Below are positions 2,017 through 43,743 of a stretch of 64,000 bases of DNA, in pieces. The stretch lies in contig NZ_CP092713.1 of the NCBI RefSeq assembly GCF_023983475.1, positions 1,054,001-1,118,000 of the forward strand, in the 5' to 3' direction. The translations under genes and the position numbers were made by a program. Every line of letters begins with the position of its first letter. The stretch's first letter is position 1. The notes under the pieces are model-generated. The model did not search any database and was not told the origin of the DNA. It saw only the letters and a program-made list of their open reading frames with translations. The DNA is from Aliivibrio fischeri ATCC 7744 = JCM 18803 = DSM 507 (GTDB lineage: Bacteria > Pseudomonadota > Gammaproteobacteria > Enterobacterales > Vibrionaceae).

Positions 2017-2730
2017 TTAGTGTGTTTCTAAATCCATTACTTTACAGCGTATTGGTAATATACTTATTTTCGCATTAGAAGAAAGGTCTCGTACAAACTC
2101 AAAGCATTTAGTTAAGTCTTGAGTTTCTATTTTTAAATTATTATCAACTCGACCATCATCTGTCATGTCAGTATTAACAACACTAGGGCATAAACAGCAA
2201 ACATTAATATTAAAAGGGAGAAGCTCATTATAGAGTGATTCACTATAACTTATTATTGCTGATTTGGTTGCTGAGTATGCCGCTATTTTGGGTACAGATT
2301 TTAAACCTGCTGTTGACCCTATGTTATATATCTCTCCAAAGCCTTGAATTTTCATTTTTTCGGCTAATAAATTACAAATAATCATAGTGGAGAGTACATT
2401 GACATTCATTAACTCAGATAGCTCATAGGAAGTTAAGCTGGTGTTTCCTGCTCTTAATATTCCAGCACTATTAACAACAACATCAATTTTTTTATATGAA
2501 TTAATAATGGATTTTATTTCAGACTCAACAGCACTTGGGTTGTTGAAATCTACTGCTACGGTTTTTATTACGCACGATGAATATAACTTTTGTAATTCTG
2601 TTTCTATCTGTTCTAGATTTTCTTTTGTAAGTGCCAACAAGATTAATGAATAACCTTCCTGAGCAAAGTAATGGGCAATAGCTTTGCCTATTCCTCGGCT
2701 AGCTCCGGTTATTAATGCAATTTTCTCCAT
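2017..2730 (-). CDS. Short-chain dehydrogenase/reductase (SDR), cassette copy 1
   Basis: 237 residues, the usual size of a classical SDR. Visible motifs: NAD(P)-binding TGASRGIG (8-15), NSAG (87-90, equivalent to NNAG), catalytic S139, Y152 and K156 (YSATK). It is a cytosolic oxidoreductase whose substrate cannot be read from sequence. It runs opposite to the attC direction and lies 80 nt downstream of ribB on the same strand, so the two probably share a promoter in 3465-3600. Essentially identical to the copy at 11797-12510. Confidence 0.92.
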   Translation of the reverse strand: MEKIALITGASRGIGKAIAHYFAQEGYSLILLALTKENLEQIETELQKLYSSCVIKTVAVDFNNPSAVESEIKSIINSYKKIDVVVNSAGILRAGNTSLTSYELSELMNVNVLSTMIICNLLAEKMKIQGFGEIYNIGSTAGLKSVPKIAAYSATKSAIISYSESLYNELLPFNINVCCLCPSVVNTDMTDDGRVDNNLKIETQDLTKCFEFVRDLSSNAKISILPIRCKVMDLETH

Positions 2731-2810
2731 AAGAAACTCTCTAATTAAGTAGATAAAAAAGTCAATTCTTAGTTTTAAATTTCTATTGTTTTACTAATTT
2801 TGATAAAGCA

Positions 2811-3464
2811 TTACTTTCTGATTTTTTGTCTGTATAACGCGATATCATCGATGGTTAAAACAGGCAAGTTATGTTTATCTGCAAAAGTAACTATTTCTTG
2901 CGTCTTGGACATTGAACCATCAAAATTTGTTACTTCACATAAAACACCTGCTGGGGTGAGTCCAGCCAACACCATTATATCAATTGTTCCTTCAGTATGT
3001 CCACGCCTAGTTAAAACACCGCCATCTTTTCCTCTTAACGGGAAAACATGTCCAGGTCTGGCAAGATCGTATGCTATGGCTTCTTTTTTACAGGCCGTTT
3101 TAATTGTTGTAACTCTATCGGATGCAGATACACCTGTTGTTACACCCTTTCTAGCTTCTATTGAGATAGTAAATGCTGTTTGATTTACACTTTCATTATC
3201 TTTAACCATTGGTGGAAGTTCAAGGTCGTCAGCTCTATCTTCTGTCAGACATAAACATACTATACCACTACAATTACGGATCATTAGAGCCATTTGTTCT
3301 GAGGTCAGATAATCTACTGAATATATAAGGTCTCCCTCATTCTCACGACACTCATCATCAAGTAACAAAACGCCATTACCTTGCTGAACAGATTTTATAG
3401 CCTGCTCGACACGTTCAAAAGGAGAACCAAATTTACTAATTAGTGACTCTTGGTTATGTATCAT
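2811..3464 (-). CDS. ribB: 3,4-dihydroxy-2-butanone 4-phosphate synthase (RibB), cassette copy 1
   Basis: Converts ribulose 5-phosphate to formate and 3,4-dihydroxy-2-butanone 4-phosphate for riboflavin synthesis. Conserved motifs: metal-binding [11 protein letters not shown] (36-46), RPGHVFPL (136-143) and RRGHTE (153-158). I chose the ATG at 3464, which gives 217 residues, the length of E. coli RibB, with GGAG 9 nt upstream; an ATG 15 nt earlier has no ribosome binding site. It stands alone without other rib genes but is followed by an SDR gene. Reversed relative to attC, so it must carry its own promoter. Copy 2 is at 12591-13244. Confidence 0.93.
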
Positions 3465-3603
3465 TACTACAAACTCCATATTGGTAGTTAATTAAGATAT
3501 TAGATATTTCTTTTACTACGTCATAATGATTTTATTACAATTTTAGTTATGTTATTGCTGTAAATTATTACAGGTTGATCTTTTACTAGTCATATAAAAG
3601 GTA
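3465..3603 (-). promoter_or_regulatory. Probable promoter region of the reversed ribB-SDR cassette
   Basis: AT-rich 140-bp leader between the attC and ribB. Because the operon points against the array, read-through from attI cannot express it, so the promoter is inferred to lie here. The second copy (13245-13384) differs by a 1-bp insertion and one substitution. No confident -35/-10 pair and no FMN riboswitch was found. Confidence 0.4.
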
Positions 3604-8482: not shown

Positions 8483-8944
8483 CACGAACTCTAAGATTGC
8501 AGTTTTTTTGCTCAGTTCAGCGATTGAGCCGTTAGTTTTTTAGGCGTGAAAGTAGGGTGGGTTTCCTTTTTCTTTGTTGCCTTTTGGTTTTCATTTCGTC
8601 AGGTTCGGCATTGAGCTATTATTGTCCTAAATTCAGGCGTTTCAGCGGCTAATTTACGCTTCAATTGTTCTTTGGTTATGCCTCATTTTAGCCTGGATCA
8701 GTGTTTTTCTCTTAGCATTTTTAATCCCAATTGTGGAAAGGATATTTGGTTTATCAGTTCCAAACTTGCTGAAACCAGATCGTACAAATGGCGTAAGAAA
8801 AAGGGATTGCTTCGTTTCACAGTTATTGGCGGTGATTGGATATTTTGCTCGCTTAATTGAGCCAGTCTAATTAAACTCAGTTTACAGTAAATCTTGGCAA
8901 ATCAATTCTTTACCAAGTTAATGGAAGCGTTGACAAAGATCGTG
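8483..8944. other. Cassette without convincing gene, family B copy 3
   Basis: Family B body but followed by a class 1 attC rather than the usual class 5, suggesting attC exchange. Confidence 0.6.
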
Positions 8945-9065
8945 TAACAAATGCATCAACACGATTTGCTACACTCGGCGTTGTCAGTTTTCCTTTAGTT
9001 TCAGTGATTAAGGCAGTAAAATTCAGCTAAGCCTGTATCGTAGCAAACGTGTTATGCAGGCGTTA
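8945..9065 (+). repeat. attC site 13 (class 1)
   Basis: TAACAAATGCATC to ATGCAGGCGTT, centre GCGTTGTCAG. Confidence 0.96.
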
Positions 9066-9082
9066 ACTGCTTCTTTGTTACC

Positions 9083-9122
9083 TGTGCAATATATTGTACA
9101 TTTTGTTTTTATGAATTATACT
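9083..9122 (+). promoter_or_regulatory. Promoter and operator of phd-yoeB copy 1
   Basis: Near-perfect 18-bp palindrome TGTGCAATATATTGTACA (9083-9100) overlaps a -35 box TTGTAC (9094-9099). It is followed 17 bp later by -10 TATACT (9117-9122). TGTACA half-sites are known YefM/YoeB operators. So the cassette has its own autoregulated promoter. Confidence 0.75.
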
Positions 9123-9159
9123 TGTTCAATATTAGGTACAACTCAACAAAGAGGTAATT

Positions 9160-9411
9160 ATGCGTATAGTTTCTTTTACTGAAGCCAGAAATGGTCTTAA
9201 ATCTGTTCTTGATGGCGTGGTTAATGATGCAGACTGCACAGTTATCACTCGTCGAGATTCTGAAGATGCGGTTGTAATGTCTATGGATTATTACAATAGT
9301 TTAATGGAAACGATATATTTATCTCGTTCTCCTGCAAATGCAGCTCATTTAAATAAATCAATTGCTCAATACAATGCTGGCCAAACTACGGAAAGAGGCT
9401 TGCTTGAATGA
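9160..9411 (+). CDS. Phd/YefM-family antitoxin, copy 1
   Basis: 83 residues. The N-terminal half (MRIVSFTEARNGLKSVLD) is the YefM/Phd DNA-binding fold; the C-terminal half should wrap around the toxin. RBS GAGG lies just upstream of the ATG. It overlaps yoeB by 4 nt (ATGA), typical of coupled toxin-antitoxin genes. Protein sequence identical to the copy at 9894. Confidence 0.93.
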   Translation: MRIVSFTEARNGLKSVLDGVVNDADCTVITRRDSEDAVVMSMDYYNSLMETIYLSRSPANAAHLNKSIAQYNAGQTTERGLLE

Positions 9412-9668
9412 GTCGAATGTTAGCTTGGACTGATGAAGCGTGGGATGATTATTTATATTGGCAAGGACAGGATAAGAAAACCCTCAAACGTATTAATAAG
9501 TTAATCACAGATGCAAAGCGTTCACCGTTTGAAGGCATTGGCAAACCTGAGCCATTGAAAGAGAACTTAGCTGGTTTTTGGTCACGCAGGATTGATGATA
9601 CAAATAGACTGGTTTATGCCGTTAATGATTCACATTTGACGATAATTTCTTGTCGTTATCACTACTAA
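9408..9668 (+). CDS. yoeB: YoeB-family mRNA interferase toxin, copy 1
   Basis: 86 residues. Ribosome-dependent endoribonuclease of the RelE/YoeB fold. The catalytic residues of E. coli YoeB (E46, R65, H83, Y84) appear here two positions later as E48, R67, H85 and Y86. Differs from copy 2 at one residue (A71 here, T71 there). Partner of the preceding antitoxin; likely stabilises the array. Confidence 0.94.
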   Translation: MSRMLAWTDEAWDDYLYWQGQDKKTLKRINKLITDAKRSPFEGIGKPEPLKENLAGFWSRRIDDTNRLVYAVNDSHLTIISCRYHY

Positions 9669-9680
9669 TTGAATCGCAGT

Positions 9681-9799
9681 TAACAAATGCATCAACACGA
9701 TTTACTACACTCGGCATCTCAGGTTGTCGGGTGTTTCTCGTTTTAAGGCGTCAATTTTGAGTATAATTGCATAGTAGTAAACGTGTTATGCAGGCGTTA
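9681..9799 (+). repeat. attC site 14 (class 3)
   Basis: TAACAAATGCATC to ATGCAGGCGTT, centre GCATCTCAGGTTG. Confidence 0.96.
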
Positions 9800-9816
9800 A
9801 CTGCTTCTTTGTTACC

Positions 9817-9856
9817 TGTGCAATATATTGTACATTTTGTTTTTATGAATTATACT
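9817..9856 (+). promoter_or_regulatory. Promoter and operator of phd-yoeB copy 2
   Basis: Exact repeat of the copy 1 control region: palindrome 9817-9834, -35 TTGTAC 9828-9833, -10 TATACT 9851-9856. Confidence 0.75.
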
Positions 9857-9893
9857 TGTTCAATATTAGGTACAACTCAACAAAGAGGTAATT

Positions 9894-10145
9894 ATGCGTA
9901 TAGTTTCTTTTACTGAAGCCAGAAATGGTCTTAAATCTGTTCTTGATGGCGTGGTTAATGATGCAGACTGCACAGTTATCACTCGTCGAGATTCTGAAGA
10001 CGCGGTTGTAATGTCTATGGACTATTATAACAGTTTAATGGAAACGATATATTTATCACGTTCTCCTGCGAATGCTGCTCATTTAAACAAATCAATAGCT
10101 CAATACAATGCAGGTCAAACTACGGAAAGAGGCTTGCTTGAATGA
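9894..10145 (+). CDS. Phd/YefM-family antitoxin, copy 2
   Basis: 83 residues, identical in protein to the gene at 9160 but with several silent base changes. The duplication is therefore not brand new, or the copies came from different cassettes. Same 4-nt overlap with the toxin gene. Confidence 0.93.
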   Translation: MRIVSFTEARNGLKSVLDGVVNDADCTVITRRDSEDAVVMSMDYYNSLMETIYLSRSPANAAHLNKSIAQYNAGQTTERGLLE

Positions 10146-10402
10146 GTCGAATGTTAGCTTGGACTGATGAAGCGTGGGATGATTATTTATATTGGCAAGG
10201 GCAGGATAAGAAAACGCTTAAACGTATTAATAAGTTAATCACAGATGCAAAGCGTTCACCGTTTGAAGGCATTGGCAAACCTGAGCCCTTGAAAGAAAAC
10301 TTAGCTGGTTTTTGGTCACGTAGGATTGATGATACAAATAGACTGGTTTATACCGTTAATGATTCACATTTGACGATAATTTCTTGTCGTTATCATTACT
10401 AA
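10142..10402 (+). CDS. yoeB: YoeB-family mRNA interferase toxin, copy 2
   Basis: 86 residues with the same catalytic set (E48, R67, H85, Y86). One residue differs from copy 1. Two adjacent identical antitoxins should cross-protect against both toxins. Confidence 0.94.
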   Translation: MSRMLAWTDEAWDDYLYWQGQDKKTLKRINKLITDAKRSPFEGIGKPEPLKENLAGFWSRRIDDTNRLVYTVNDSHLTIISCRYHY

Positions 10403-10414
10403 TTGAATCGCAGT

Positions 10415-10533
10415 TAACAAATGCATCAACACGATTTACTACACTCGGCATCTCAGGTTGTCGGGTGTTTCTCGTTTTAAGGCGTCAATATTAAGTATAA
10501 TTGCATAGTAGTAAACGTGTTATGCAAGCGTTA
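10415..10533 (+). repeat. attC site 15 (class 3)
   Basis: TAACAAATGCATC to ATGCAAGCGTT. Same class as the attC of the neighbouring phd-yoeB copy. Confidence 0.96.
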
Positions 10534-10599
10534 TACCTTGGTGTGCCCACAGAATTAGAACACATTCTATACTTAGGTTATACCTATCTGGAGGCTACC

Positions 10600-10908
10600 A
10601 TGAGCAAGCATTATACTAAATCTTACCCTGAAGAGTATCGTAAAGAAGCTGTCCGACTCGCAGATCAAAAAGATAGAACGACGGCTTCCGTCGCGAAGGA
10701 ATTAGGGTTACACCCTAATCAAATTTATAACTGGCGAAGACAGTTTAACCTTCTGACAAATAAACAGTTTACGGTTCATGATGGTATCGATTATTCAATA
10801 AAAGAAAACTCAGAAATGCGTAAGATGAGAAAAGAGCTAAATGACCTAAAAAAAGAGAATGAGTTCTTAAAAAAGGCAGCGGCGTACTTTGCCAAAAACC
10901 AAGAGTAA
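10600..10908 (+). CDS. IS3-family transposase OrfA
   Basis: 102 residues from the ATG preceded by GGAGG. The N-terminus is an HTH_8-type helix-turn-helix (TASVAKELGLHPNQIYNWRR) that binds the IS ends. The C-terminus is a leucine-zipper-like helix. A slippery heptamer AAAAAAG at 10869-10875 near the 3' end should cause -1 frameshifting into orfB to make the OrfAB transposase. Confidence 0.93.
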   Translation: MSKHYTKSYPEEYRKEAVRLADQKDRTTASVAKELGLHPNQIYNWRRQFNLLTNKQFTVHDGIDYSIKENSEMRKMRKELNDLKKENEFLKKAAAYFAKNQE

Positions 10909-11765
10909 AGTACGCACTTATTCGTGATTTTAGAAGTAACTATAGTGTTCGTTTTCTTTGCCGAGTTTTAAAAGCATCTTCAACTGGTTTTTATGCATGG
11001 CATAATAAATCATTAAGCAAAGCCTCCAAAAGGAGGCTAGACTTTGAAAAGAAGATATTATCAACCTTTGCTGAGTTTGAGGCTAAATACGGCTCTAGAA
11101 GAGTTAGGAATGAGCTTGTAAAGCTAGGATATCCTTGTTCAACTAATTATGTAGCAAAGATCATGAAGGATCGAGGTATTAGAGCCCATAACGGAAAAGG
11201 CTTCCGTTATGGACGACGAGTTGAATCAACTCGTAATGTGGTAGGCAACATTTTAGACCGGCGCTTTACCGCTGAAAGCCCCAATGAACGTTGGACAACA
11301 GATATTACGTACATTTGGGTTAACGATAAATTTATGTACCTGGCCGTTGTTATGGACTTATTTTCAAGGAAAATAATTGGGTGGTCATTAGACGACTCAA
11401 TGACTGAGGTTCTTATTTCAGATGCATTAAAAATGGCCTTCCGTCGAAGAAAGATTAAACAAGGTTTAATCATTCATTCAGATCGAGGAGTTCAATACCG
11501 TTCTAACAATTATCAAGAACTTATAAATGATAATGGTTGCGTCCAAAGTATGAGTCGAACAGGAAACTGCTGGGATAATGCAGCAATGGAATCCTTTTTC
11601 AGTCGACTAAAAGTCGAACTGATTTACCCAAAGAATTATCAAACAGTTACCGATGTTCAAACTGGCATATTTGAATATATTGAGATCTTCTATAATCGTA
11701 AGCGCAGTCACTCAACATTAAACAACTTGAGTCCATTTGAATTTGAAAGTAAATTTGTAAAATAA
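10863..11765 (+). CDS. IS3-family transposase OrfB (DDE integrase), expressed by -1 frameshift
   Basis: The frame is open from 10863, just after a stop, and lies -1 relative to orfA. An internal ATG at 11163 gives only the last 200 residues. Catalytic DDE residues are visible: D in TTDITYIW, D in IHSDRGVQYRS and E in ESFFSRLKVE. The N-terminal part has the HTH_21 segment of IS3 transposases (GSRRVRNEL). It appears intact, so the element may be active. Confidence 0.9.
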   Translation, partial: VLKKGSGVLCQKPRVKYALIRDFRSNYSVRFLCRVLKASSTGFYAWHNKSLSKASKRRLDFEKKILSTFAEFEAKYGSRRVRNELVKLGYPCSTNYVAKIMKDRGIRAHNGKGFRYGRRVESTRNVVGNILDRRFTAESPNERWTTDITYIWVNDKFMYLAVVMDLFSRKIIGWSLDDSMTEVLISDALKMAFRRRKIKQGLIIHSDRGVQYRSNNYQELINDNGCVQSMSRTGNCWDNAAMESFFSRLKVELIYPKNYQTVTDVQTGIFEYIEIFYNRKRSHSTLNNLSPFEFESKFVK

Positions 11766-11796
11766 AGTGTTCGCTTTTCGAGGGGCACACCAACCT

Positions 11797-12510
11797 TTAG
11801 TGTGTTTCTAAATCCATTACTTTACAGCGTATTGGTAATATACTTATTTTCGCATTAGAAGAAAGGTCTCGTACAAACTCAAAGCATTTAGTTAAGTCTT
11901 GAGTTTCTATTTTTAAATTATTATCAACTCGACCATCATCTGTCATGTCAGTATTAACAACACTAGGGCATAAACAGCAAACATTAATATTAAAAGGGAG
12001 AAGCTCATTATAGAGTGATTCACTATAACTTATTATTGCTGATTTGGTTGCTGAGTATGCCGCTATTTTGGGTACAGATTTTAAACCTGCTGTTGACCCT
12101 ATGTTATATATCTCTCCAAAGCCTTGAATTTTCATTTTTTCGGCTAATAAATTACAAATAATCATAGTGGAGAGTACATTGACATTCATTAACTCAGATA
12201 GCTCATAGGAAGTTAAGCTGGTGTTTCCTGCTCTTAATATTCCAGCACTATTAACAACAACATCAATTTTTTTATATGAATTAATAATGGATTTTATTTC
12301 AGACTCAACAGCACTTGGGTTGTTGAAATCTACTGCTACGGTTTTTATTACGCACGATGAATATAACTTTTGTAATTCTGTTTCTATCTGTTCTAGATTT
12401 TCTTTTGTAAGTGCCAACAAGATTAATGAATAACCTTCCTGAGCAAAGTAATGGGCAATAGCTTTGCCTATTCCTCGGCTAGCTCCGGTTATTAATGCAA
12501 TTTTCTCCAT
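11797..12510 (-). CDS. Short-chain dehydrogenase/reductase, cassette copy 2
   Basis: Identical 237-residue protein to 2017-2730 with the same motifs (TGASRGIG 8-15, Y152, K156). The IS lies directly behind its stop codon and does not interrupt the gene. Confidence 0.92.
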   Translation of the reverse strand: MEKIALITGASRGIGKAIAHYFAQEGYSLILLALTKENLEQIETELQKLYSSCVIKTVAVDFNNPSAVESEIKSIINSYKKIDVVVNSAGILRAGNTSLTSYELSELMNVNVLSTMIICNLLAEKMKIQGFGEIYNIGSTAGLKSVPKIAAYSATKSAIISYSESLYNELLPFNINVCCLCPSVVNTDMTDDGRVDNNLKIETQDLTKCFEFVRDLSSNAKISILPIRCKVMDLETH

Positions 12511-12590
12511 AAGAAACTCTCTAATTAAGTAGATAAAAAAGTCAATTCTTAGTTTTAAATTTCTATTGTTTTACTAATTTTGATAAAGCA

Positions 12591-13244
12591 TTACTTTCTG
12601 ATTTTTTGTCTGTATAACGCGATATCATCGATGGTTAAAACAGGCAAGTTATGTTTATCTGCAAAAGTAACTATTTCTTGCGTCTTGGACATTGAACCAT
12701 CAAAATTTGTTACTTCACATAAAACACCTGCTGGGGTGAGTCCAGCCAACACCATTATATCAATTGTTCCTTCAGTATGTCCACGCCTAGTTAAAACACC
12801 GCCATCTTTTCCTCTTAACGGGAAAACATGTCCAGGTCTGGCAAGATCGTATGCTATGGCTTCTTTTTTACAGGCCGTTTTAATTGTTGTAACTCTATCG
12901 GATGCAGATACACCTGTTGTTACACCCTTTCTAGCTTCTATTGAGATAGTAAATGCTGTTTGATTTACACTTTCATTATCTTTAACCATTGGTGGAAGTT
13001 CAAGGTCGTCAGCTCTATCTTCTGTCAGACATAAACATACTATACCACTACAATTACGGATCATTAGAGCCATTTGTTCTGAGGTCAGATAATCTACTGA
13101 ATATATAAGGTCTCCCTCATTCTCACGACACTCATCATCAAGTAACAAAACGCCATTACCTTGCTGAACAGATTTTATAGCCTGCTCGACACGTTCAAAA
13201 GGAGAACCAAATTTACTAATTAGTGACTCTTGGTTATGTATCAT
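12591..13244 (-). CDS. ribB: 3,4-dihydroxy-2-butanone 4-phosphate synthase (RibB), cassette copy 2
   Basis: Same 217-residue protein as 2811-3464, with [11 protein letters not shown] and RPGHVFPL motifs. The coding DNA looks identical to copy 1, and only the upstream leader shows small differences. Oriented against the array and followed by the SDR gene. Confidence 0.93.
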
Positions 13245-13384
13245 TACTACAAACTCCATATTGGTAGTTAATTAAGATATTAGATATTTCTTTTATCTAC
13301 GTCATAATGATTTTATTACAATTTTAGTTATGTTATTACTGTAAATTATTACAGGTTGATCTTTTACTAGTCATATAAAAGGTA

Positions 13385-15428: not shown

Positions 15429-15545
15429 CAAATGCATCAACACGATTTACTACACTCGGCAATCTCAGTTTGCCGAGTGTTTCTCGTTTTAAGGCGTCAA
15501 TATTAAGTATAATTGCATAGTAGTAAACGTGTTATGCAGGCGTTA
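15426..15545 (+). repeat. attC site 19 (class 3 variant)
   Basis: TAACAAATGCATC to ATGCAGGCGTT; centre CAATCTCAGTTTGCC, one base longer than typical class 3. Confidence 0.95.
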
Positions 15546-15563
15546 TATTTTCAAGGAGGTTCA

Positions 15564-16784
15564 GTGAAAGGTTTATTTTTAGGTGCAGGTGCTTCAGTCG
15601 AATGTGGTATGCCGCTTGTTTGGGCGTTTACGAGTACGTTGTCGAAAAATATTTTATCTAGATTGGATATAAATTTATTCAATTTTCACGATGACGAAAG
15701 TATAAAAAAGAGATTTGTTTCAGTTTTTCAAAGTGAAACTATGCACTATGAAGAAATGGTGAAGTATTTAGAAAATTGGAAACTAGAAGCGGAAACACCT
15801 CAAGAAGAAGAGATTGTTAGCGGTTTAATCAAGCAGGTTACTGAGTGTATTCAGTTGTTGTTACTGGAGATGCAAGAAAAGTGCTTACCTAAAATGAAAT
15901 TTAGGTTTAAAAATTATTTTGGATTGGAGGCATTGCTTGAGCAACAAGGTAAAATCGAAATATTTTCTCTTAATCATGATCTGATTATCGAAGAGCTATG
16001 TGCTTATTATTGTTTGGGCTTAAAAGACGGTTTTTACGCCAATAGAGAGCACAACTACATGAATCTAGGTGAATTTAGGTTAATTACTTCGGAAGAACTA
16101 TCGGAACAAAAATTAGACTTCTATGAAGAAAATGAGAAAGGAATAAACCTACTGAAACTTCACGGATCTTTTGATATTTTCGCCATTGAAGATAAGAAAA
16201 CATATTTAAAATCAGTAGGTAATGGAAGTCTCGGTTCTTTTGTGTCTGCAATCAGAAATATTGAATCAAAGAGTTTAGAAGTTTGCCAAAAAATGCAAAA
16301 CCGAGGGGTTAATGAATTGTTTGTTAATGACTCTTCTGGTGAGCTACAATTTCTAAGGCGTTCATTATTATCTGGGGGTCATAAATTCAAAGGTAAATTT
16401 GAGCAGATCGCTCCTGTTGCATTGTTTAATGCATTTAAAAGTAGAATCAACAATGTTCAAGAGTTAGTAGTTATTGGTTACGGTTTCGGTGATGAGCACG
16501 TTAATGAAGTTATGCTTGAGTGGCTATCAAATTCGGATAACCAGCTAACGATTACTAACCCGTATTGTAATGAGATTCCTGATTTTCTTAAAATTTACCA
16601 AGCTCAAGTGAAAATAATTAAGAAAGGCTTAACAGACTATCTTTTGTCTATTGATCCATTAAAGGATACTCCTGAAAGGAAAGTACAAAGAGAACTAATA
16701 CAGTACTTAGAAACTCTTTCATCTGATGAATTAACAAAATTAGTAAAACAGAGTCGCTCCGCGAAGGTACATCCACAAGCTTAG
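15564..16784 (+). CDS. SIR2-like domain protein, candidate NAD+-cleaving defence protein
   Basis: 406 residues from GTG at 15564, with AAGGAGG 5 nt upstream. A longer frame from 15513 only adds residues coded by attC. SIR2 landmarks are in order: GAGAS (7-11, NAD-binding loop), SLNHD (135-139, the TxNxD loop), LHGS with candidate catalytic H200, and IGYGFGDEHVN (304-314). SIR2 domains in bacterial defence systems (Thoeris ThsA, DSR, SIR2-HerA, Prometheus-like) deplete NAD+ during phage infection. No partner gene shares the cassette, so it may act alone. The cytosolic location is inferred. Confidence 0.88.
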   Translation: MKGLFLGAGASVECGMPLVWAFTSTLSKNILSRLDINLFNFHDDESIKKRFVSVFQSETMHYEEMVKYLENWKLEAETPQEEEIVSGLIKQVTECIQLLLLEMQEKCLPKMKFRFKNYFGLEALLEQQGKIEIFSLNHDLIIEELCAYYCLGLKDGFYANREHNYMNLGEFRLITSEELSEQKLDFYEENEKGINLLKLHGSFDIFAIEDKKTYLKSVGNGSLGSFVSAIRNIESKSLEVCQKMQNRGVNELFVNDSSGELQFLRRSLLSGGHKFKGKFEQIAPVALFNAFKSRINNVQELVVIGYGFGDEHVNEVMLEWLSNSDNQLTITNPYCNEIPDFLKIYQAQVKIIKKGLTDYLLSIDPLKDTPERKVQRELIQYLETLSSDELTKLVKQSRSAKVHPQA

Positions 16785-21404: not shown

Positions 21405-22127
21405 TTGAAAGATAAAGAGAAAATTGCATTATTCATCGATGCAGACAATGCTCCAGCAGCTAAAATTGATTCAATTCTTTCTGAATTAGCTAAGTTCGGA
21501 GTTGTTAATATTCGTAAAGCTTATGGTAACTGGAAAAATTGCACCTTGAAGTCTTGGGAAGATGTATTACATGAGTACGCAATACAGCCTATACAGCAAT
21601 TTGATTTAGTAAAAGGTAAAAATGCGACAGATATTGCTTTGGTGATTGATGCAATGGATGTTTTGTATACAAAGGATGTAGATATTATCTGTATAGTATC
21701 TTCTGATTGTGATTTCACTCCATTGGTCACTAGGGCTTTAGCTGACGGGAAATTTATAATCGGATTTGGTGAACGTAAAGCACCTTCTGCTTTTGTTAAT
21801 AGTTGTTCTAAATTCCTCTATCTTGATCAAGAAGATGTTGAAAATAAACCTGTTCAAAAGAAAACCCAAAGTATAAAAAGTGACACTAAGCTTATGAATT
21901 TATTAAGACAAGCTATTGGTGCTGTTGATGAAGATGATGGTTGGACAATGCTTGGGCAAATAGGTACGCATATATCAAATCATGCGTCGTTTGATCCTCG
22001 AAATTATGGTTTCAAAAAACTTAGCGATTTATTTTTAGCTATCGATTTATTCGAAATGAAAAAGACGCATGGTTCTGTTTATTGGGTAAGAGAAAAGAAA
22101 AAAGCTAAGAATAATAAAGCTAAATAG
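21405..22127 (+). CDS. NYN-domain ribonuclease-like protein with LOTUS/OST-HTH domain
   Basis: 240 residues from TTG, preceded by AAGGAAAG. Residues about 7-150 form a NYN/PIN-like nuclease domain: ALFIDADNAP holds the first acidic residues, KNATDIALVIDAMD the middle acids and VSSDCDFTPLV the last. Residues about 165-235 match a LOTUS/OST-HTH RNA-binding domain. LabA/DUF88-type proteins of this design are RNases or RNA-binding regulators. The basic C-terminal tail (KKKAKNNKAK) fits nucleic acid binding. Confidence 0.9.
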   Translation: MKDKEKIALFIDADNAPAAKIDSILSELAKFGVVNIRKAYGNWKNCTLKSWEDVLHEYAIQPIQQFDLVKGKNATDIALVIDAMDVLYTKDVDIICIVSSDCDFTPLVTRALADGKFIIGFGERKAPSAFVNSCSKFLYLDQEDVENKPVQKKTQSIKSDTKLMNLLRQAIGAVDEDDGWTMLGQIGTHISNHASFDPRNYGFKKLSDLFLAIDLFEMKKTHGSVYWVREKKKAKNNKAK

Positions 22128-22283: not shown

Positions 22284-22991
22284 ATGAATATAGAAGAAAT
22301 AGTAGCTCATAATTATCTCGAAGGACTAAACATTGGGAAAATATGCTATGAACCAGATGGAAATAGACCTCCTGATTTTCGGTTAAATAAAGATATAGCT
22401 ATTGAAGTTACTAGATTAAATGAACATATTGAGATCCAAGGTAAAATTAAAAGATTAGATGATGATCGGTCAGCAATTATTTCCTTTATCAAAAGAATAT
22501 TACACTCATTTCAACCAGATTTTTCTGACGGTCAATTTTGGGTTGAAATTAAGGTAAAGAGACCTTTTGGGGATAGAAAAAAAACGGGAAGAAAATTAAA
22601 TAATTTACTTTCTTCATTTGAATCAGCTACAAATATCGATTGTGTTAAGGAATATGAAGTTACGGACGCTCTTTCAATTAAATTTTTAAGATGTGATTCA
22701 GATAAGCTAAGTTCTGCTTTTAGATTAGGATGTTTCTCTGAGCATGACACGGGAGGTTGGGTTGGTGAAGAGGTATTAAACAATATAACTTATTGTATTA
22801 ATATCAAGTCATCAAAAATTAAGCCCTATATAAATTCTTATAAAGAATGGTGGTTAGTTTTAGTTGATACATTAGGATATGGTGATTATGACGAATATGT
22901 TGGAATGTTGAAGTCTAGCATTGATAAGAAAGCATTTAGAAAAGTCATAGTACTTGACAGAGAAACTGGAAGCTATGCATTTGAAATATAA
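22284..22991 (+). CDS. Hypothetical protein, possible PD-(D/E)xK-type nuclease
   Basis: 235 residues. The early segment PPDFRLNKDIAIEVTRL (D31, E41) resembles the PD...ExK core of restriction-like nucleases, although the lysine position is Thr. The rest has a charged KRPFGDRKKTGRK loop and a WWLVLVDTLGYGDYDEYV strand. No family name recognised. Single-gene cassette; the stop lies in attC. Confidence 0.75.
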   Translation: MNIEEIVAHNYLEGLNIGKICYEPDGNRPPDFRLNKDIAIEVTRLNEHIEIQGKIKRLDDDRSAIISFIKRILHSFQPDFSDGQFWVEIKVKRPFGDRKKTGRKLNNLLSSFESATNIDCVKEYEVTDALSIKFLRCDSDKLSSAFRLGCFSEHDTGGWVGEEVLNNITYCINIKSSKIKPYINSYKEWWLVLVDTLGYGDYDEYVGMLKSSIDKKAFRKVIVLDRETGSYAFEI

Positions 22992-23106
22992 CAAATGCAT
23001 CAACACGATTTGCTACATTCGGCATTCTAGGTTTCTTTTGGTTTGCAGCGTTAAGTGGTAAATTTGGCTTGGTTTGCATGGTAGCAAACGTGTTATTCAG
23101 GCGTTA
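22989..23106 (+). repeat. attC site 29 (class 2)
   Basis: TAACAAATGCATC to ATTCAGGCGTT. Confidence 0.95.
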
Positions 23107-23567
23107 CACGAACTCTAAGATTGCAGTTTTTTGGCTCAGTTCAGCGATTGAGCCGTTAGTTTTTTAGGCGAGAAAGTAGGGTGGTTTTCCTTTTTCTTTG
23201 TTGCCTTTTTGTGTTCGTTTCATCAGGTTCGGCAATTGACCATTATTGCCAAAAGTTCATGGATTTCAGAAACCAATTCACGCTTCAATTGTTCATGGTT
23301 TTGCCTCATTTAGGTCACCATCTGTATTTTGCTCTTAGCATTTTCAATCCCAATTGTGGCAATGATATTTGGTTTATAAGCTAAAAACTTGCTGAAACCA
23401 AATCGTACAAATGGTGTAAGAAAAAGGGATTGTTTCGTTTCACAGTTATTGTCGTTGAATGGATATTTTGCTCGCTTAATTGAGCCAGTCTAATTAAACT
23501 CAGTTAGCAGTAAATCTTGGTAAATCAGTTCTTTACCAATTAAAGTGAAGCGTTGACAAAGATCGTG
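23107..23567. other. Cassette without convincing gene, family B copy 5
   Basis: CACGAACTCTAAG start, GATCGTG end. Followed by a class 1 attC, as in copy 3, unlike the class 5 attC of other B copies. Confidence 0.6.
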
Positions 23568-23688
23568 TAACAAATGCATCAACACGATTTGCTACACTCG
23601 GCGTTGTCAGTTTGCCTTTAGTTTCAGTGATTAAGGCAGTAAAATTCAGCTAAGTCTGTATCGTAGCAAACGTGTTATGCAGGCGTTA
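23568..23688 (+). repeat. attC site 30 (class 1)
   Basis: TAACAAATGCATC to ATGCAGGCGTT, centre GCGTTGTCAG. It closes a family B cassette and precedes the Thoeris-like cassette. Confidence 0.96.
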
Positions 23689-23708
23689 TACGATTAAAAG
23701 AGGTAATA

Positions 23709-24536
23709 ATGAAGACTTTTAGATTGTTTGTTCGTAATACTCTACTCTCTTTAGGGATAACTAGCAGTATAGTTACTGTCTTGTGGGCAATCTTTTCAGC
23801 TCAATTAAATGATCTGGTTAAAGATTGTGAATGGTTGTTTTTAGGTTCGATTATTATTATAAATATCATTTATGGTGTTATATCTGTATTGCCTAAAAAT
23901 AGTGTTAAGTTGAAACTGGGAGAGAATTTAAAGGTTGATGTTGGGTTTGGTGATCTTTTTCAAAAAGAAGGGGTTGTCGTCATTCCTGTTAATGATTATT
24001 TTGATACGTTAGTTGATGAAAAAGTTGTTAGTTCTAATACGATACATGGTATTTTCGTGAAACGTTTTTTTTCAGGTAACGAAAAACTACTGAAACGTTT
24101 AATTTCAGCATCATTAAAAAATATAGTGCCGGTTGAAGTAAATAAAACTAGAAAGCAAGGTAATCATTCTCGCTATGCACTTGGAACGGTTGCTTGTGTT
24201 CCTTATGAAGGCAAGCGATACTTTTTAGTTGCATTGACTAAATTTAATGAGAACTATCGAGCTGAAGTTACTAAATCAGAGTACCAAAGAGTATTATGTG
24301 ATTTATTTGATTATATTGAACAAAACTCACAAGGAAATAGAGTTAATGTACCTCTTATTGGTGGGGGGCATTCAGGACTTGAACTACCGAAACAAAAGTT
24401 ACTTGAATTCTTACTGTTATCTATAACATTAAATGACAAACTTACATTAATTAATGGTCTTGATATTGTCTTACATCAAAGTGTTAAAGATGAAGTTAGT
24501 CTTAATATCATAGAAAGTTATTATCAAACATTATAG
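23709..24536 (+). CDS. thsA: ThsA-like effector of type II Thoeris: two membrane helices plus macro-like domain
   Basis: 275 residues, RBS AGAGG. Membrane helices lie at about 11-30 and 42-58. From about residue 75 there is a macro-like domain matching DUF6430 (Thoeris ThsA macro type): VVVIPVNDYFDTLVD, ALGTVACVPYEGKRYFLVAL and NVPLIGGGHSGL. In type II Thoeris the macro domain senses a nucleotide signal made by the TIR protein and the membrane part then harms the infected cell. The gene lies 8 nt before the TIR-like gene in one cassette, so they form one operon. Confidence 0.85.
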   Translation: MKTFRLFVRNTLLSLGITSSIVTVLWAIFSAQLNDLVKDCEWLFLGSIIIINIIYGVISVLPKNSVKLKLGENLKVDVGFGDLFQKEGVVVIPVNDYFDTLVDEKVVSSNTIHGIFVKRFFSGNEKLLKRLISASLKNIVPVEVNKTRKQGNHSRYALGTVACVPYEGKRYFLVALTKFNENYRAEVTKSEYQRVLCDLFDYIEQNSQGNRVNVPLIGGGHSGLELPKQKLLEFLLLSITLNDKLTLINGLDIVLHQSVKDEVSLNIIESYYQTL

Positions 24537-24544
24537 GGATAAAG

Positions 24545-25111
24545 ATGGCATATAGAAATGGTACATATATCGCATTTCATGCGAATGGAACAACAGATCC
24601 TACAGCCTCAGATATCAAATTTTATAATTTGATGAAAGCTTGGACAAATAAAACTGATGATGATTTTTCATTTATTAACAGTCATGAAAAGACAGCATCC
24701 GTACGTGATAGCAGTAAAAAAATAACGTTACGTTCTCGTTTAGTTCAAAGACTTAATAATTCTAAGCACCTTGTTTTAATTATTGGTAAAACAACGAAAG
24801 ATGATACTGACTGGGTGCCATTTGAAATTGAACACGCAATTGATAAATGCAAAATGCCAGTAATTATTGTGTATGCGTCTTCTATTATTAATACAGAGAA
24901 TGCGATTCGTAATCCTAAGAATTTATCGCATTATTGGCCAAAATCTTTGAAACAGAGAATAGAAAACGGGTCAGTTAATGCCATTCATATTCCTTTTAAG
25001 AAAGCACCGTTAATTGATGCAATTGGGCAGTTTAATATACAAAAACAGCCAACTGGCAAAGGCTATGGAATCTACAGTGAGGAAGCTAATTCAAATTTTG
25101 GGTTAAATTAA
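24545..25111 (+). CDS. thsB: ThsB-like TIR-domain protein of type II Thoeris
   Basis: 188 residues. Matches the TIR-like ThsB domain (formerly DUF1863): YIAFHANGT near the N-terminus, SKHLVLIIGKTTKDDTDWV (about 73-91) and FEIEHAI with the probable catalytic glutamate at E94 or E96. Thoeris TIR proteins detect phage and use NAD+ to make a signalling ADP-ribose derivative; histidine-ADPR is known for type II. Partner of the preceding ThsA-like gene. Which E is catalytic is inference. Confidence 0.85.
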   Translation: MAYRNGTYIAFHANGTTDPTASDIKFYNLMKAWTNKTDDDFSFINSHEKTASVRDSSKKITLRSRLVQRLNNSKHLVLIIGKTTKDDTDWVPFEIEHAIDKCKMPVIIVYASSIINTENAIRNPKNLSHYWPKSLKQRIENGSVNAIHIPFKKAPLIDAIGQFNIQKQPTGKGYGIYSEEANSNFGLN

Positions 25112-25116
25112 TCGTA

Positions 25117-25236
25117 TAACAAATGCATCAACACGATTTACTACACTCGGCAATCTCAGTTTGCCGGGTGTTTCTCGTTTTAAGGCGTCAATTTTAAGTA
25201 TAATTGCATAGTAGTAAACGTGTTATGCAGGCGTTA
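25117..25236 (+). repeat. attC site 31 (class 3 variant)
   Basis: TAACAAATGCATC to ATGCAGGCGTT, centre CAATCTCAGTTTGCC. Confidence 0.95.
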
Positions 25237-25697
25237 CACGAACTCTAAGAATGCATTTTTTTGGCTCAGTTCAGCGATTGAGCCGTTAGTTTTTTAGGCG
25301 AGAAAGTAAGGTGGATTTCCTTTTTCTTTGTTGCCTTTTAGTTTTCATTTCATCAGGTTCGGCAATTAAACATTATTGTCAAAAGTTCATGGGTTTCAGA
25401 AACCAATTCACGCTTCAATTGTTCATGGTTTTGCCTCATTTTAGTCTGCATCAGTGTTTTGCTCGCAGCATTTTTAATCCCAATTGTGGCGAGTATATTT
25501 GGTTTATCAGCTCAAAACAGGCTGAAACCAAATCGTACAAATGGTGTAAGAAAAAGGGATTGTTTCGTTTCACAGTTATTGTCGTTGGTTGGATATTTTG
25601 CTCGCTTAATTGAGTCAGTCTAATTAAACTCAGTTTACAGTAAATCTTGGTAAATCAATTCTTTACCAAGTTAATAGAAGCGTTGACAAAGATCGTG
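25237..25697. other. Cassette without convincing gene, family B copy 6
   Basis: CACGAACTCTAAG start, GATCGTG end. The 100-codon + strand frame from 25311 is the longest in family B. The minus strand is also open here, except for a TGA just before the KPNILATIGI peptide. Confidence 0.6.
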
Positions 25698-25798
25698 TAA
25701 CAAAGCAATCAACACGATGCTAATTACACTCGGCGTTTGTGGTTTGAAGTATAATTGGTTTGGAAAGTAAGGTGTTCGCACGTGTTATTGCGGCGTTA
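25698..25798 (+). repeat. attC site 32 (class 5)
   Basis: Short attC, TAACAAAGCAATC to TTATTGCGGCGTT. Confidence 0.95.
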
Positions 25799-28148: not shown

Positions 28149-28958
28149 TTACTTATTTTCATACTCAACTGGGCTTACATAGCCTAACGCTGAGTGCCTT
28201 CTTTTACGATTATAGAACACTTCGATGTACTCGAAGATCCCAGCTTTGGCTTCATTTATAGATTGATAATCTTCCGCATAAATCAGTTCGACTTTTAGTC
28301 GACTGAAAAATGATTCCATTACTGCGTTATCCCAACAGTTACCTTTACGACTCATACTTGGCTCTCCGCCATGTCTACGCATAAAGTCTTGGTACTTTTG
28401 AGAACGATATTGTACACCGCGATCTGAGTGGATAATAAGCCCCTTAGGGGGCTTACGTGATGTGAATGCCATTTTCAAAGCATCAGTCACCAGTTGTTCA
28501 GTCATTGTTGTATTCAATGACCAACCAACAATACGTCTAGAATGTAAATCCATTACTGTAGCTAAGTATAGCCAACGATCTTTAACCCAGATATAAGTAA
28601 TGTCTGTTACCCATTTTTGATTTGCTACTGGCGATTCAAAATCTCGACGTAATAAGTTATCAGCTACGTTCGTTATAGCAGCAACATCTTTGATATATTT
28701 AAATGACTTGCCATTACGTGCTTTTATCTGCTTTTCTACCATAATATCAGCAATATAATTAACACTGCAGGTCTCACCTTGTGCGACTAATTCCCTGGTA
28801 ATTCGAACTGCTCCATAACGAGCTCGAAACTCAGCATAAGTTTGCATAATTAGCAGCTCAAAATGTTGTCTTCTCAATAGCCGCTCGCTCGGTGAGCGGC
28901 ATCTCCAGCGATAATATCCAGATCTAGATACCTTCAAAGCGCGACACATCAGCGTCAC
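28149..28958 (-). CDS. IS3-family transposase OrfB (DDE integrase)
   Basis: 269 residues from the internal ATG; the true product is an OrfAB fusion made by -1 frameshift. DDE residues are visible in TDITYIWVKDRW, IHSDRGVQYRS and ESFFSRLKVELI. The N-terminal HTH_21 segment is YGAVRITREL. Similar to, but clearly distinct from, the transposase at 10863-11765. Confidence 0.92.
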   Translation of the reverse strand: MTLMCRALKVSRSGYYRWRCRSPSERLLRRQHFELLIMQTYAEFRARYGAVRITRELVAQGETCSVNYIADIMVEKQIKARNGKSFKYIKDVAAITNVADNLLRRDFESPVANQKWVTDITYIWVKDRWLYLATVMDLHSRRIVGWSLNTTMTEQLVTDALKMAFTSRKPPKGLIIHSDRGVQYRSQKYQDFMRRHGGEPSMSRKGNCWDNAVMESFFSRLKVELIYAEDYQSINEAKAGIFEYIEVFYNRKRRHSALGYVSPVEYENK

Positions 28959-28996
28959 CGTGTATTCTCCGATAAAGCTATGAATATATTCGTACT

Positions 28997-29305
28997 TTAC
29001 TCTTGGCGCTTCGCAAAGTACGCAGAGACCTTTTTTAAGAATTCTAACTCTTCTTTGAGTCGCATATTTTCAAGTTTTAATTGCTGCATTTCTTTCGTCT
29101 CCTGCTTTGAATAATCAATACCCTCAAGGGTATTGAATTGTTTATCAGAGAGGCGTGTAAATTGACGTTTCCAATTAGCTATTTGTTGCGCACTGACACC
29201 AAGCTGCTTAGCAACTTGTGTTGCAGTTCGGTCTGGAAGTTGTGAGAGACGTACAGCTTCTTTTCGAAACTCTTCCGTGTACGCTGACTTTCTTTGTTTA
29301 CTCAT
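28997..29305 (-). CDS. IS3-family transposase OrfA
   Basis: 102 residues. HTH (TQVAKQLGVSAQQIANWKR) followed by a coiled-coil (LKLENMRLKEELEFLKK). The slippery heptamer AAAAAAG on the minus strand (29030-29036) lies near the 3' end, and the orfB frame is -1 relative to it. Confidence 0.92.
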   Translation of the reverse strand: MSKQRKSAYTEEFRKEAVRLSQLPDRTATQVAKQLGVSAQQIANWKRQFTRLSDKQFNTLEGIDYSKQETKEMQQLKLENMRLKEELEFLKKVSAYFAKRQE

Positions 29306-42692: not shown

Positions 42693-43148
42693 ATGAAATA
42701 CGAATTATTAGTTTTAGCTGCAATGACACGATTAGAATCTCCAAATACTCAAGCTATCGTGGCTGCAACTGGGATTTCTGAACGTAAAGTACAATCCGTA
42801 GTTAACTCATTAGTTAAAAATTTAGGCTTAAATATTCAAAGAGAGCGTCAAGGTCGAACCTTCCGTTTTTCTATTAATAGCTGGGGTGTTTTTGAATCAG
42901 GAAAAGCGATCCAGTCTCAACTTAATGATATTGATTTAGTTATGCCAAGTAATTCAATGCTTTCTTCTTACGAAGAAAAGCATGCCTATTTCGAGCAAGT
43001 TAAAATGGATAACTTTAAAGAAAGTATGCGTTTAGAAGGGCATGATGTTGCTAGTAATTTCGATTTATCACTCGACAGAGAGCAACAACGTCAAATTTTG
43101 TTAAGCAAATACTCAAACGTAAATTCGTTAGAGGCGCTCAATGGTTGA
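42693..43148 (+). CDS. Fic-toxin antitoxin with N-terminal winged helix
   Basis: 151 residues from ATG 42693 with GAGG upstream; an in-frame ATG at 42678 lacks an RBS. Residues 1-65 look like a winged-helix DNA-binding domain (TQAIVAATGISERKVQSVVNSL). SMRLEG at 111-116 matches the [S/T]xxxE[G/N] inhibitory motif of VbhA-type Fic antitoxins, which blocks ATP binding by the Fic protein. Overlaps fic by 8 nt. It probably also represses the operon. Confidence 0.88.
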   Translation: MKYELLVLAAMTRLESPNTQAIVAATGISERKVQSVVNSLVKNLGLNIQRERQGRTFRFSINSWGVFESGKAIQSQLNDIDLVMPSNSMLSSYEEKHAYFEQVKMDNFKESMRLEGHDVASNFDLSLDREQQRQILLSKYSNVNSLEALNG

Positions 43149-43743
43149 TAAATATGGCACAACACAAGATCCTTATACTTACGAAAATAGTACGGTTCTT
43201 GTTAATAAGCTCAATATCAACAATGAAGCGGTATTAGAGGCTGCAGAACGTGATTTAACAACGTTAGCTGCAATGTATGTAGAGTTTCAATTGCCTCCTT
43301 ACGATTTCATCTATCTGCGTTCAATTCATCATATGTTATTCTCCGATCTATTTGAATGGGCTGGCGAGTTAAGAACGATTGATATTTCAAAGGGAAATAC
43401 ACGTTTCTGTAATGTAGCTAGGATTGAAAAAGAAGCAAATAATCTATTTTCAATGTTAGAAAAAGATAAGTATTTAGTAGAACTACCATACGATGAATTT
43501 CTTACTAAGTTAGCTGAGTATTATTGCGATATTAATGTTTTACATCCATTCCGTGAAGGAAATGGTCGTGCCCAACGTTTGTTGTTTGAGCATATTGCAA
43601 TCAACTGTGGTTACAATATTAATTTTTCAGGCATTACTTCTGAGCAGTGGGTAGCCGCAAATATCCATGGCTATCATTGTAATTATGTGCCAATGAAAGA
43701 GCTGTTTTCTGTTTGTGTAACTAAAGCTGAAAAGCGCAGTTAA
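43141..43743 (+). CDS. fic: Fic-family AMP-transferase toxin
   Basis: 200 residues. Fic motif HPFREGNGR at 135-143 with catalytic H135; the N-terminal helices and GELRTIDISKGNTRF flap are typical. Transfers AMP from ATP to target proteins (type II topoisomerases for VbhT-like toxins). Inhibited by the preceding antitoxin. The last complete gene of the array. Confidence 0.94.
   Translation: MVDKYGTTQDPYTYENSTVLVNKLNINNEAVLEAAERDLTTLAAMYVEFQLPPYDFIYLRSIHHMLFSDLFEWAGELRTIDISKGNTRFCNVARIEKEANNLFSMLEKDKYLVELPYDEFLTKLAEYYCDINVLHPFREGNGRAQRLLFEHIAINCGYNINFSGITSEQWVAANIHGYHCNYVPMKELFSVCVTKAEKRS

Follow-up and report, generated by a model that had tools for sequence, protein, structure and literature searches.

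A type II Thoeris gene pair with a variant effector pocket in a single integron cassette of Aliivibrio fischeri

Two adjacent genes in an integron array of Aliivibrio fischeri raise the question of whether a complete type II Thoeris defence can be carried, and could be expressed, as one mobile cassette. The window, meaning the whole analysed stretch of 64,000 nucleotides (C2:1054001-1118000), lies on a 1.5-Mb contig of a 4.5-Mb genome assembled in two contigs. A sequence-only reading had described a ThsA-like membrane plus macro-domain protein and a ThsB-like TIR protein encoded 8 nt apart, and both were found as intact open reading frames (ORFs) with ATG starts on the plus strand; thsA (23709..24536) encodes 275 aa and thsB (24545..25111) 188 aa, with 8 nt between the stop of the first and the start of the second. 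ThsA was matched by the Pfam profile PF20016 (ThsA_Macro) with an E value of 2.3e-48 (164.8 bits, cut-off 25) across profile positions 1-183 of 183, and ThsB by PF08937 (ThsB_TIR) with an E value of 4.1e-16 (59.7 bits, cut-off 21.2). PADLOC models agreed, matching almost the full length of ThsA (E 1.9e-57) and ThsB (E 2.6e-66), and the proposed membership of both proteins in the Thoeris families was borne out. In NCBIfam, which holds no relevant model, ThsB had no match and ThsA a single one, far under the cut-off and to an unrelated family. The Pfam and PADLOC scores ruled out that the two frames were chance or misannotated ORFs. The macro domain of ThsA occupies residues 76-256 (23934..24476), the stretch matched by Pfam, and is preceded by two hydrophobic segments at residues 11-33 and 36-66 (23739..23906), probably transmembrane, which were called from hydropathy alone as 19-residue Kyte-Doolittle windows above 1.6. 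The assignment of the pair to type II Thoeris is therefore supported at the level of gene composition.

Among solved structures, the closest relatives were 8v6q, 8v6s, 9uuz and 8r66 for ThsA and 9uv0, 3hyn and 8v6t for ThsB. These top relatives of both proteins were Thoeris proteins, the exception being 3hyn, whose title is just 'putative signal transduction protein'; weak profile matches also went to other TIR proteins and to one unrelated sensor protein. The marked residues of ThsB are the Glu E94, W90, the pair R54-D55 and Y8. E94, four residues past W90, was invariant in 15 of 15 aligned ThsB homologues, and in the profile alignment it falls on a Glu of 9uv0, 3hyn, 8v6t and 6lhy, which we take to be the catalytic Glu of those chains. 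The TIR catalytic Glu on which the first reading depended was thus present, by both sequence and profile alignment. Y8 was kept in 14 of the 15 homologues and is a candidate for the active-site Tyr reported to be restricted to those ThsB proteins that are partnered with a TM-macro ThsA (Shi et al., PMC11204291).

The claim that the pair shares one integron cassette also held. The genes lie in a complete cassette of 1548 nt (23686..25233, plus strand); the attC sites that delimit it, at 23565..23691 upstream and 25114..25239 downstream, both lie on the plus strand and were recognized by paired arms and boxes. The boxes at the start (GTTATAC) and the end (GTATAAC) of the cassette are complementary at 7/7 positions, as expected if the cassette was once a circle; such 7/7 boxes were found in 123 of 144 array cassettes, compared with 9.2% of random box pairs. 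A division of thsA and thsB between two cassettes was ruled out by the intergenic gap of just 8 nt. An integron integrase gene, intI, is encoded on the same contig (C2:958082-959011, minus strand; TIGR02249, 372.9 bits, cut-off 265), and the array comprises 145 plus-strand attC sites between C2:959934 and 1096602, about 137 kb, with the Thoeris cassette between sites 125 and 126, some 119 kb from intI. A whole-array scan with a slightly looser pattern returned 146 plus-strand sites and 0 on the minus strand, one of which, at 969586, was discarded as unlike the others; a looser scan of the window gave 52 matches, of which 3 low-scoring ones on the minus strand and some that overlapped or looked odd on the plus strand were taken as spurious. 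The cassette is long for the array, whose median is 762 nt, and 15 of the 144 cassettes, itself counted, are as long or longer. The bottom strands of the two flanking attC sites fold with energies of -34.6 and -37.8 kcal/mol and the top strands with -43.6 and -39.1 kcal/mol, all with RNA parameters; both sites form long hairpins, and since the top strands fold equally well or better, fold energy does not discriminate between them.

No match to PF20016 was found in 13 other genomes of the genus; together with the complementary boxes, this absence suggests that the cassette may be gained and lost as a unit. In plasmid DNA a nucleotide match was obtained solely at the attC (97.5% identity across 120 bases with sites carried by a plasmid of Aliivibrio wodanis), and protein-level relatives with less than 60% identity were present in 81 records. 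A pair that stabilizes the array, in the manner of toxin-antitoxin cassettes, instead of defending against phage, was weighed as an explanation for this residence. The toxin-antitoxin families CcdA, CcdB, YefM-type, YoeB and TacA were indeed matched among the 42 window proteins scanned, and a TIR enzyme with a membrane protein could be toxic. However, no antitoxin family was among the Pfam, PADLOC and NCBIfam matches of ThsA or ThsB, and in studied relatives ThsB produces the signal that switches on ThsA (PMC11204291), so loss of the cassette would free no toxin; array stabilization was accordingly judged very improbable.

Considered as a whole, the cassette is probably a complete, signal-driven type II Thoeris defence that would move as a unit and be transcribed from a gene-less neighbour, its function being argued by analogy with studied systems. 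In such a system, ThsB would sense infection and consume NAD+ through E94, yielding an ADP-ribose conjugate, which is histidine-ADPR in the studied system. The conjugate would bind the macro domain of ThsA and cause it to oligomerize, the N-terminal membrane segments would cluster, and the resulting perturbation of the membrane would abort phage growth. The cassette itself would be excised and inserted as a unit by IntI and, while in place, would be transcribed from the neighbouring gene-less promoter cassette and not from the integron promoter Pc, some 119 kb distant. The sensing of phage by ThsB, the NAD+-derived signal that it makes, the oligomerization of ThsA and the membrane perturbation have their basis in relatives (PMC11204291, PMC12847820), and the gene content, the cassette structure, the conserved E94 and the hydrophobic segments have theirs in this DNA. 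If active, the cassette would pack a complete sensor-messenger-effector immunity into 1.5 kb, which a single recombinase could integrate, keep in store or bring forward to the first array position.

The storage of anti-phage genes as integron cassettes is established in print for Vibrio cholerae, V. parahaemolyticus and mobile integrons (PMC12409362), in line with the first reading. Thoeris is mentioned 0 times in that review, whereas the window holds a two-gene signalling system that fills one cassette. The literature searched, with passages of PMC13064858, PMC12753305 and PMC12259885 included, gave no account of an integron cassette that carries Thoeris; a 2025 paper in Science on chromosomal integrons may list it. 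Type II Thoeris and integron defence biobanks are both known, and the window is a new example, with a pocket variant.

The frequency of such effectors was surveyed with PF20016, which was rare, occurring in 6 of 329 Vibrionaceae genomes; wider draws gave 2 of 369 genomes at the level of the class and 4 of 398 at that of the phylum, and the family to which a further carrier, the gammaproteobacterium G762, belongs gave 4 of 299. Combined and with repeats removed, the surveys yielded 13 genomes, 12 of which were scanned for attC (G727, with a partial match, was omitted). A cassette-borne ThsA was found in 3 of these 12, namely the window, G762 and Vibrio pectenicida, the last with attC on one side only. 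G762 belongs to another family; its ThsB precedes ThsA (L059, 11262-12708), attC sites lie on both sides with boxes matching 7/7, and its genome carries an integron integrase above the cut-off. In V. pectenicida, the genes lie on plasmid pLMG19642-1 (NZ_AP024891.1, L017) in the order ThsB, ThsA and a third gene, with an attC following the last of these and, ahead of ThsB, an R' box alone. The boxes match 6/7, and no integrase above the cut-off was found in that genome; it is a probable third cassette-borne case. The third gene there (8906-9466) encodes 186 aa and has no Pfam or PADLOC match. The scan detected no attC around the ThsA of the other 9 of the 12 genomes, nor around 8 more loci from IMG/VR and named genomes. 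Its sensitivity is incomplete, at least two sites of L059 and the site before the V. pectenicida ThsB having been missed, and the stretches of L028 and L060 end close to the genes; for these reasons 3 of 12 may be an undercount. Two genomes with no attC near ThsA (G111 and G117) have integron integrases above the cut-off elsewhere.

The G762 and probable V. pectenicida cases ruled out the idea that the arrangement of the window is unique. The three cassette-borne ThsA proteins are of the His, Asn and Gln types at the pocket position discussed below (114), and ThsA comes first in the window and ThsB first in the other two; with these different types and gene orders, independent capture of TM-macro Thoeris by integrons is the simplest reading, and capture of such a system as a cassette seems to have happened more than once. 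Across the wider set, a ThsB-like ORF was present within the scanned stretch of 18 of 19 ThsA loci, adjacency not being confirmed locus by locus, and the exception was L019. At L027, from G117, the best ThsB-like match lay 1.3 kb from ThsA and on the other strand; this locus (9019-11791) has a TIR gene beside ThsA and a second ThsB-like ORF on the other strand (11216-11791), 36% identical to the ThsB of the window. Searches of IMG/VR returned no relative of the window ThsB and none of the retron-linked ThsA, and phage records gave a single ThsA match (E 4e-10).

The ligand pocket of the window ThsA departs from that of E. coli ThsA. Nine residues of EcThsA touch ADPR, at positions 83, 113, 114, 175, 217, 218, 220, 259 and 262 (Shi et al., PMC11204291), and these align with D82, I112, H113, T177, G219, G220, S222, H256 and V259 of the window protein. 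Three of the nine contacts are kept (D82, G220 and H256, equivalent to D83, G218 and H259 of EcThsA), three are changed conservatively from EcThsA to the window (L113I, S175T and T220S) and three non-conservatively (N114H, S217G and K262V); the structural residues N96 and D100 of EcThsA are kept as N95 and D99. With six of the nine contacts differing, N114H among them, the signal of the window system may not be exactly His-ADPR.

Position 114 was compared across 21 ThsA rows, from which the partial ThsA of G727 and repeat copies of the same gene had been excluded, and was Asn in 12, His in 7, including the window, and Gln in 2. T220 was kept in 12/12 Asn rows and 0/7 His rows, K262 in 12/12 and 1/7, H259 in 12/12 and 2/7, and S217 in 11/12 and 2/7, respectively. 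On a tree of 17 rows, built before the last four of the 21 were added and for which the program warned of long branches, the 8 Asn rows formed one side of a branch with support of 100/100; the His rows did not form a clade and required 2 changes, and the closest neighbour of the window ThsA by path was the retron-linked L015 (support 86/90). The solved chain 9uuz also deviates at positions 259 and 262, and so changes there may not matter for binding. Among the Asn rows, G1240 (ThsB identity with the window 44%) has Thr at 175 and Gly at 217 as the window does, so that neither of these changes is a marker of the His rows. The comparisons with 9uuz and G1240 therefore single out 114 and 220 as the changes of interest.

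These data bear on the reading that the pair is a working Thoeris whose H-type pocket, with His at the position of N114, with 220 altered and with 217, 259 and 262 altered in most cases, reads a signal other than histidine-ADPR, such as another base conjugate or a free nucleotide. It would account for the way in which retention of T220, K262, H259 and S217 follows the split at 114, for the placement of the Asn rows (8 of 17) on one side of the fully supported branch, and for L019, a His row with no ThsB within its 19-kb stretch, where ThsA comes after a type II-A retron. Against it, the window ThsB retains E94 and Y8, the His rows are not shown as a clade, and two of the pocket changes occur together with Asn at 114 in G1240, which makes the reading slightly less likely, and 259 and 262 also vary in 9uuz. 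On balance, a different signal was considered rather unlikely. A broader version, in which the H-type TM-macro ThsA would be an exchangeable membrane effector for a non-histidine-ADPR nucleotide signal and integrons would have captured TM-macro Thoeris types independently, was thought improbable; its signal makers would be a single ThsB TIR for the window, a pair of TIR-like proteins at L009 and L011 and, at L019, a type II-A retron together with an NDT-like protein. The window ThsA is also a naturally occurring pocket variant with which the residues that decide the signal specificity of type II Thoeris could be sought.

Several of the loci just mentioned have features of their own. At L019 (7127-9951, from G075 of the same family) a type II-A retron was matched by NDT_II-A (E 1.6e-70) and RT_II-A (E 1.3e-109), an H-type TM-macro ThsA follows 37 nt after it, and there is no ThsB-like ORF in the 19-kb stretch; it is possibly a retron with a Thoeris effector, which suggests that the effector may be coupled to another sensor as well. 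The H-type loci L009 (2524-4604) and L011 (4883-7247) each contain a second, different TIR-like protein, matched by a further ThsB model of PADLOC at E 1.2e-52 and 6.2e-72, respectively.

Among known systems, that of E. coli CFT073 (EcThsA and EcThsB2; 8v6q, 8v6t; PMC11204291) likewise has an N-terminal membrane part followed by ThsA_Macro, and the catalytic Glu and N-terminal Tyr of its ThsB align with those of the window. It differs in having two ThsB proteins where the window has one and in the six contact positions given above, and it was not placed in an integron, a word that occurs 0 times in the main text of PMC11204291. The residue at position 114 is Asn in the solved chains 8r66 and 9uuz, presumably the structures of the Bacillus amyloliquefaciens type II Thoeris, and His in the window. 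The B. amyloliquefaciens system resembles the window in its single ThsB and TM-macro ThsA, and is a histidine-ADPR system (PMC11204291). Further relatives are the ThsA-ThsB pairs of Rhodanobacter glycinis (L011) and of an IMG/VR contig, 2901201504 (L030), both of which share with the window His at 114 and the order ThsA then ThsB; their ThsB proteins are 55% and 42% identical to that of the window, respectively, and the ThsA of L030 is 43% identical over the best segment. Unlike the window, neither had attC around it in the final scan, a looser scan giving one GC-rich match (L011, 3566-3634), and L011 has an extra ThsB-like gene upstream. In L030 (3860-7079, IMGVR_UViG_2901201504), the genes related to the window pair have an AimR-like gene nearby (PF22871, E 1.1e-41), which suggests an arbitrium-type prophage with a type II Thoeris.

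How the pair could be expressed in place is the remaining step. The leader between the cassette start and thsA (23686..23708) has 23 nt, contains a ribosome-binding-like stretch, AGAGG, and is too short for a full promoter, and so a promoter must come from outside the cassette. A gene-less cassette of 582 nt (c124, 23104..23685, plus strand) lies directly upstream and is the candidate source; another, of 562 nt (c126, 25234..25795, plus strand), lies directly downstream. Both belong to a cluster of 22 copies in the array, each with 458-462 nt ahead of the attC and with pairwise identities of 77-100% (median 85%). All 14 genomes of the genus had matches to the gene-less sequence, though G007 and G008 only a single weaker one each. 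The flanking of a cassette by gene-less cassettes on both sides was no more frequent than chance (3 found, 3.4 expected). A protein-coding gene in the family was rejected, as no ORF was kept across copies and no clear third-position excess was seen in the long low-stop frames (71 codons in frame +0 and 52 in frame -0). Nor was there support for a structured RNA: in the consensus fold of 17 copies, double changes occurred in just 5 of the 95 pairs and the covariation term was -2.1; a scan of the window with Rfam gave no match. Non-coding paralogous cassettes are known in Vibrio (PMC1382264).

Most of the gene-less Vibrionaceae cassettes that have been assayed show sense promoter activity, and three of three from V. 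fischeri raised the sense reporter signal 27-101 fold (Blanco et al., PMC11014356). Additionally, an antisense promoter in one V. fischeri gene-less cassette can silence the cassette upstream (PMC11014356). The cassettes of that study may differ from the 22-copy family, so the neighbours could help or hinder the expression of thsA-thsB. A promoter scan found 12 sites against 11.4 (sd 3.4) in shuffled sequence, no excess, and promoters of gene-less cassettes are not reliably identified in silico (PMC11014356). Terminator-like hairpins were in excess, with 7 against 1.5 in shuffles, several of them within attC sites or gene-less cassettes; one at 23132-23155, near the start of the upstream gene-less cassette, could stop read-through from farther upstream.

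The pair might instead be silent stored cargo, intact and unexpressed in place and useful only once shuffled to the first position. Its distance from intI, the short leader, the lack of a promoter excess and the excess of terminator-like hairpins are all in keeping with this, as is the usual model, in which expression is weak for cassettes distant from Pc (PMC12409362). In a Vibrio array of 116 cassettes, nevertheless, cassette-borne promoters drove the expression of most genes (PMC2945992), and the Thoeris cassette has directly upstream of it a gene-less cassette of the kind that was strongly active in V. fischeri, though perhaps with a different sequence (PMC11014356). Silent storage was regarded as a real possibility, though less likely than not, and transcription of the Thoeris pair from the gene-less neighbour was preferred.

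Other genes of the window were noted as well. A protein of 423 aa, encoded by the cassette at 15513-16784, has defence matches of the SIR2 type (best E with PADLOC 7.3e-19), and just beyond the last detected attC, at 43141-43743, lies the gene of a 200-aa protein of the candidate defence family PDC-S04 (E 2.3e-81), which also weakly matches a Fic defence model and whose start is overlapped by a 156-aa ORF. Two tandem cassettes of 734 nt (9160-10402) have an identical layout of overlapping ORFs of 83 and 86 aa, perhaps a YefM-YoeB pair, these families having been matched on the pooled 42 proteins and not per gene. Pairs of minus-strand ORFs within cassettes at 28149-29305, 2017-3479 and 11797-13259 are probably insertion sequences; the ORF sizes at 2017-3479 and 11797-13259 are identical, and rve domains were found in 2 of the 42 window proteins scanned, a set that does not include the 11797-13259 stretch. 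Upstream of the Thoeris cassette, the cassettes at 21405-22127 and 22284-22991 encode a protein with NYN plus OST-HTH domains and a 235-aa protein, respectively, the latter with no Pfam or PADLOC match.
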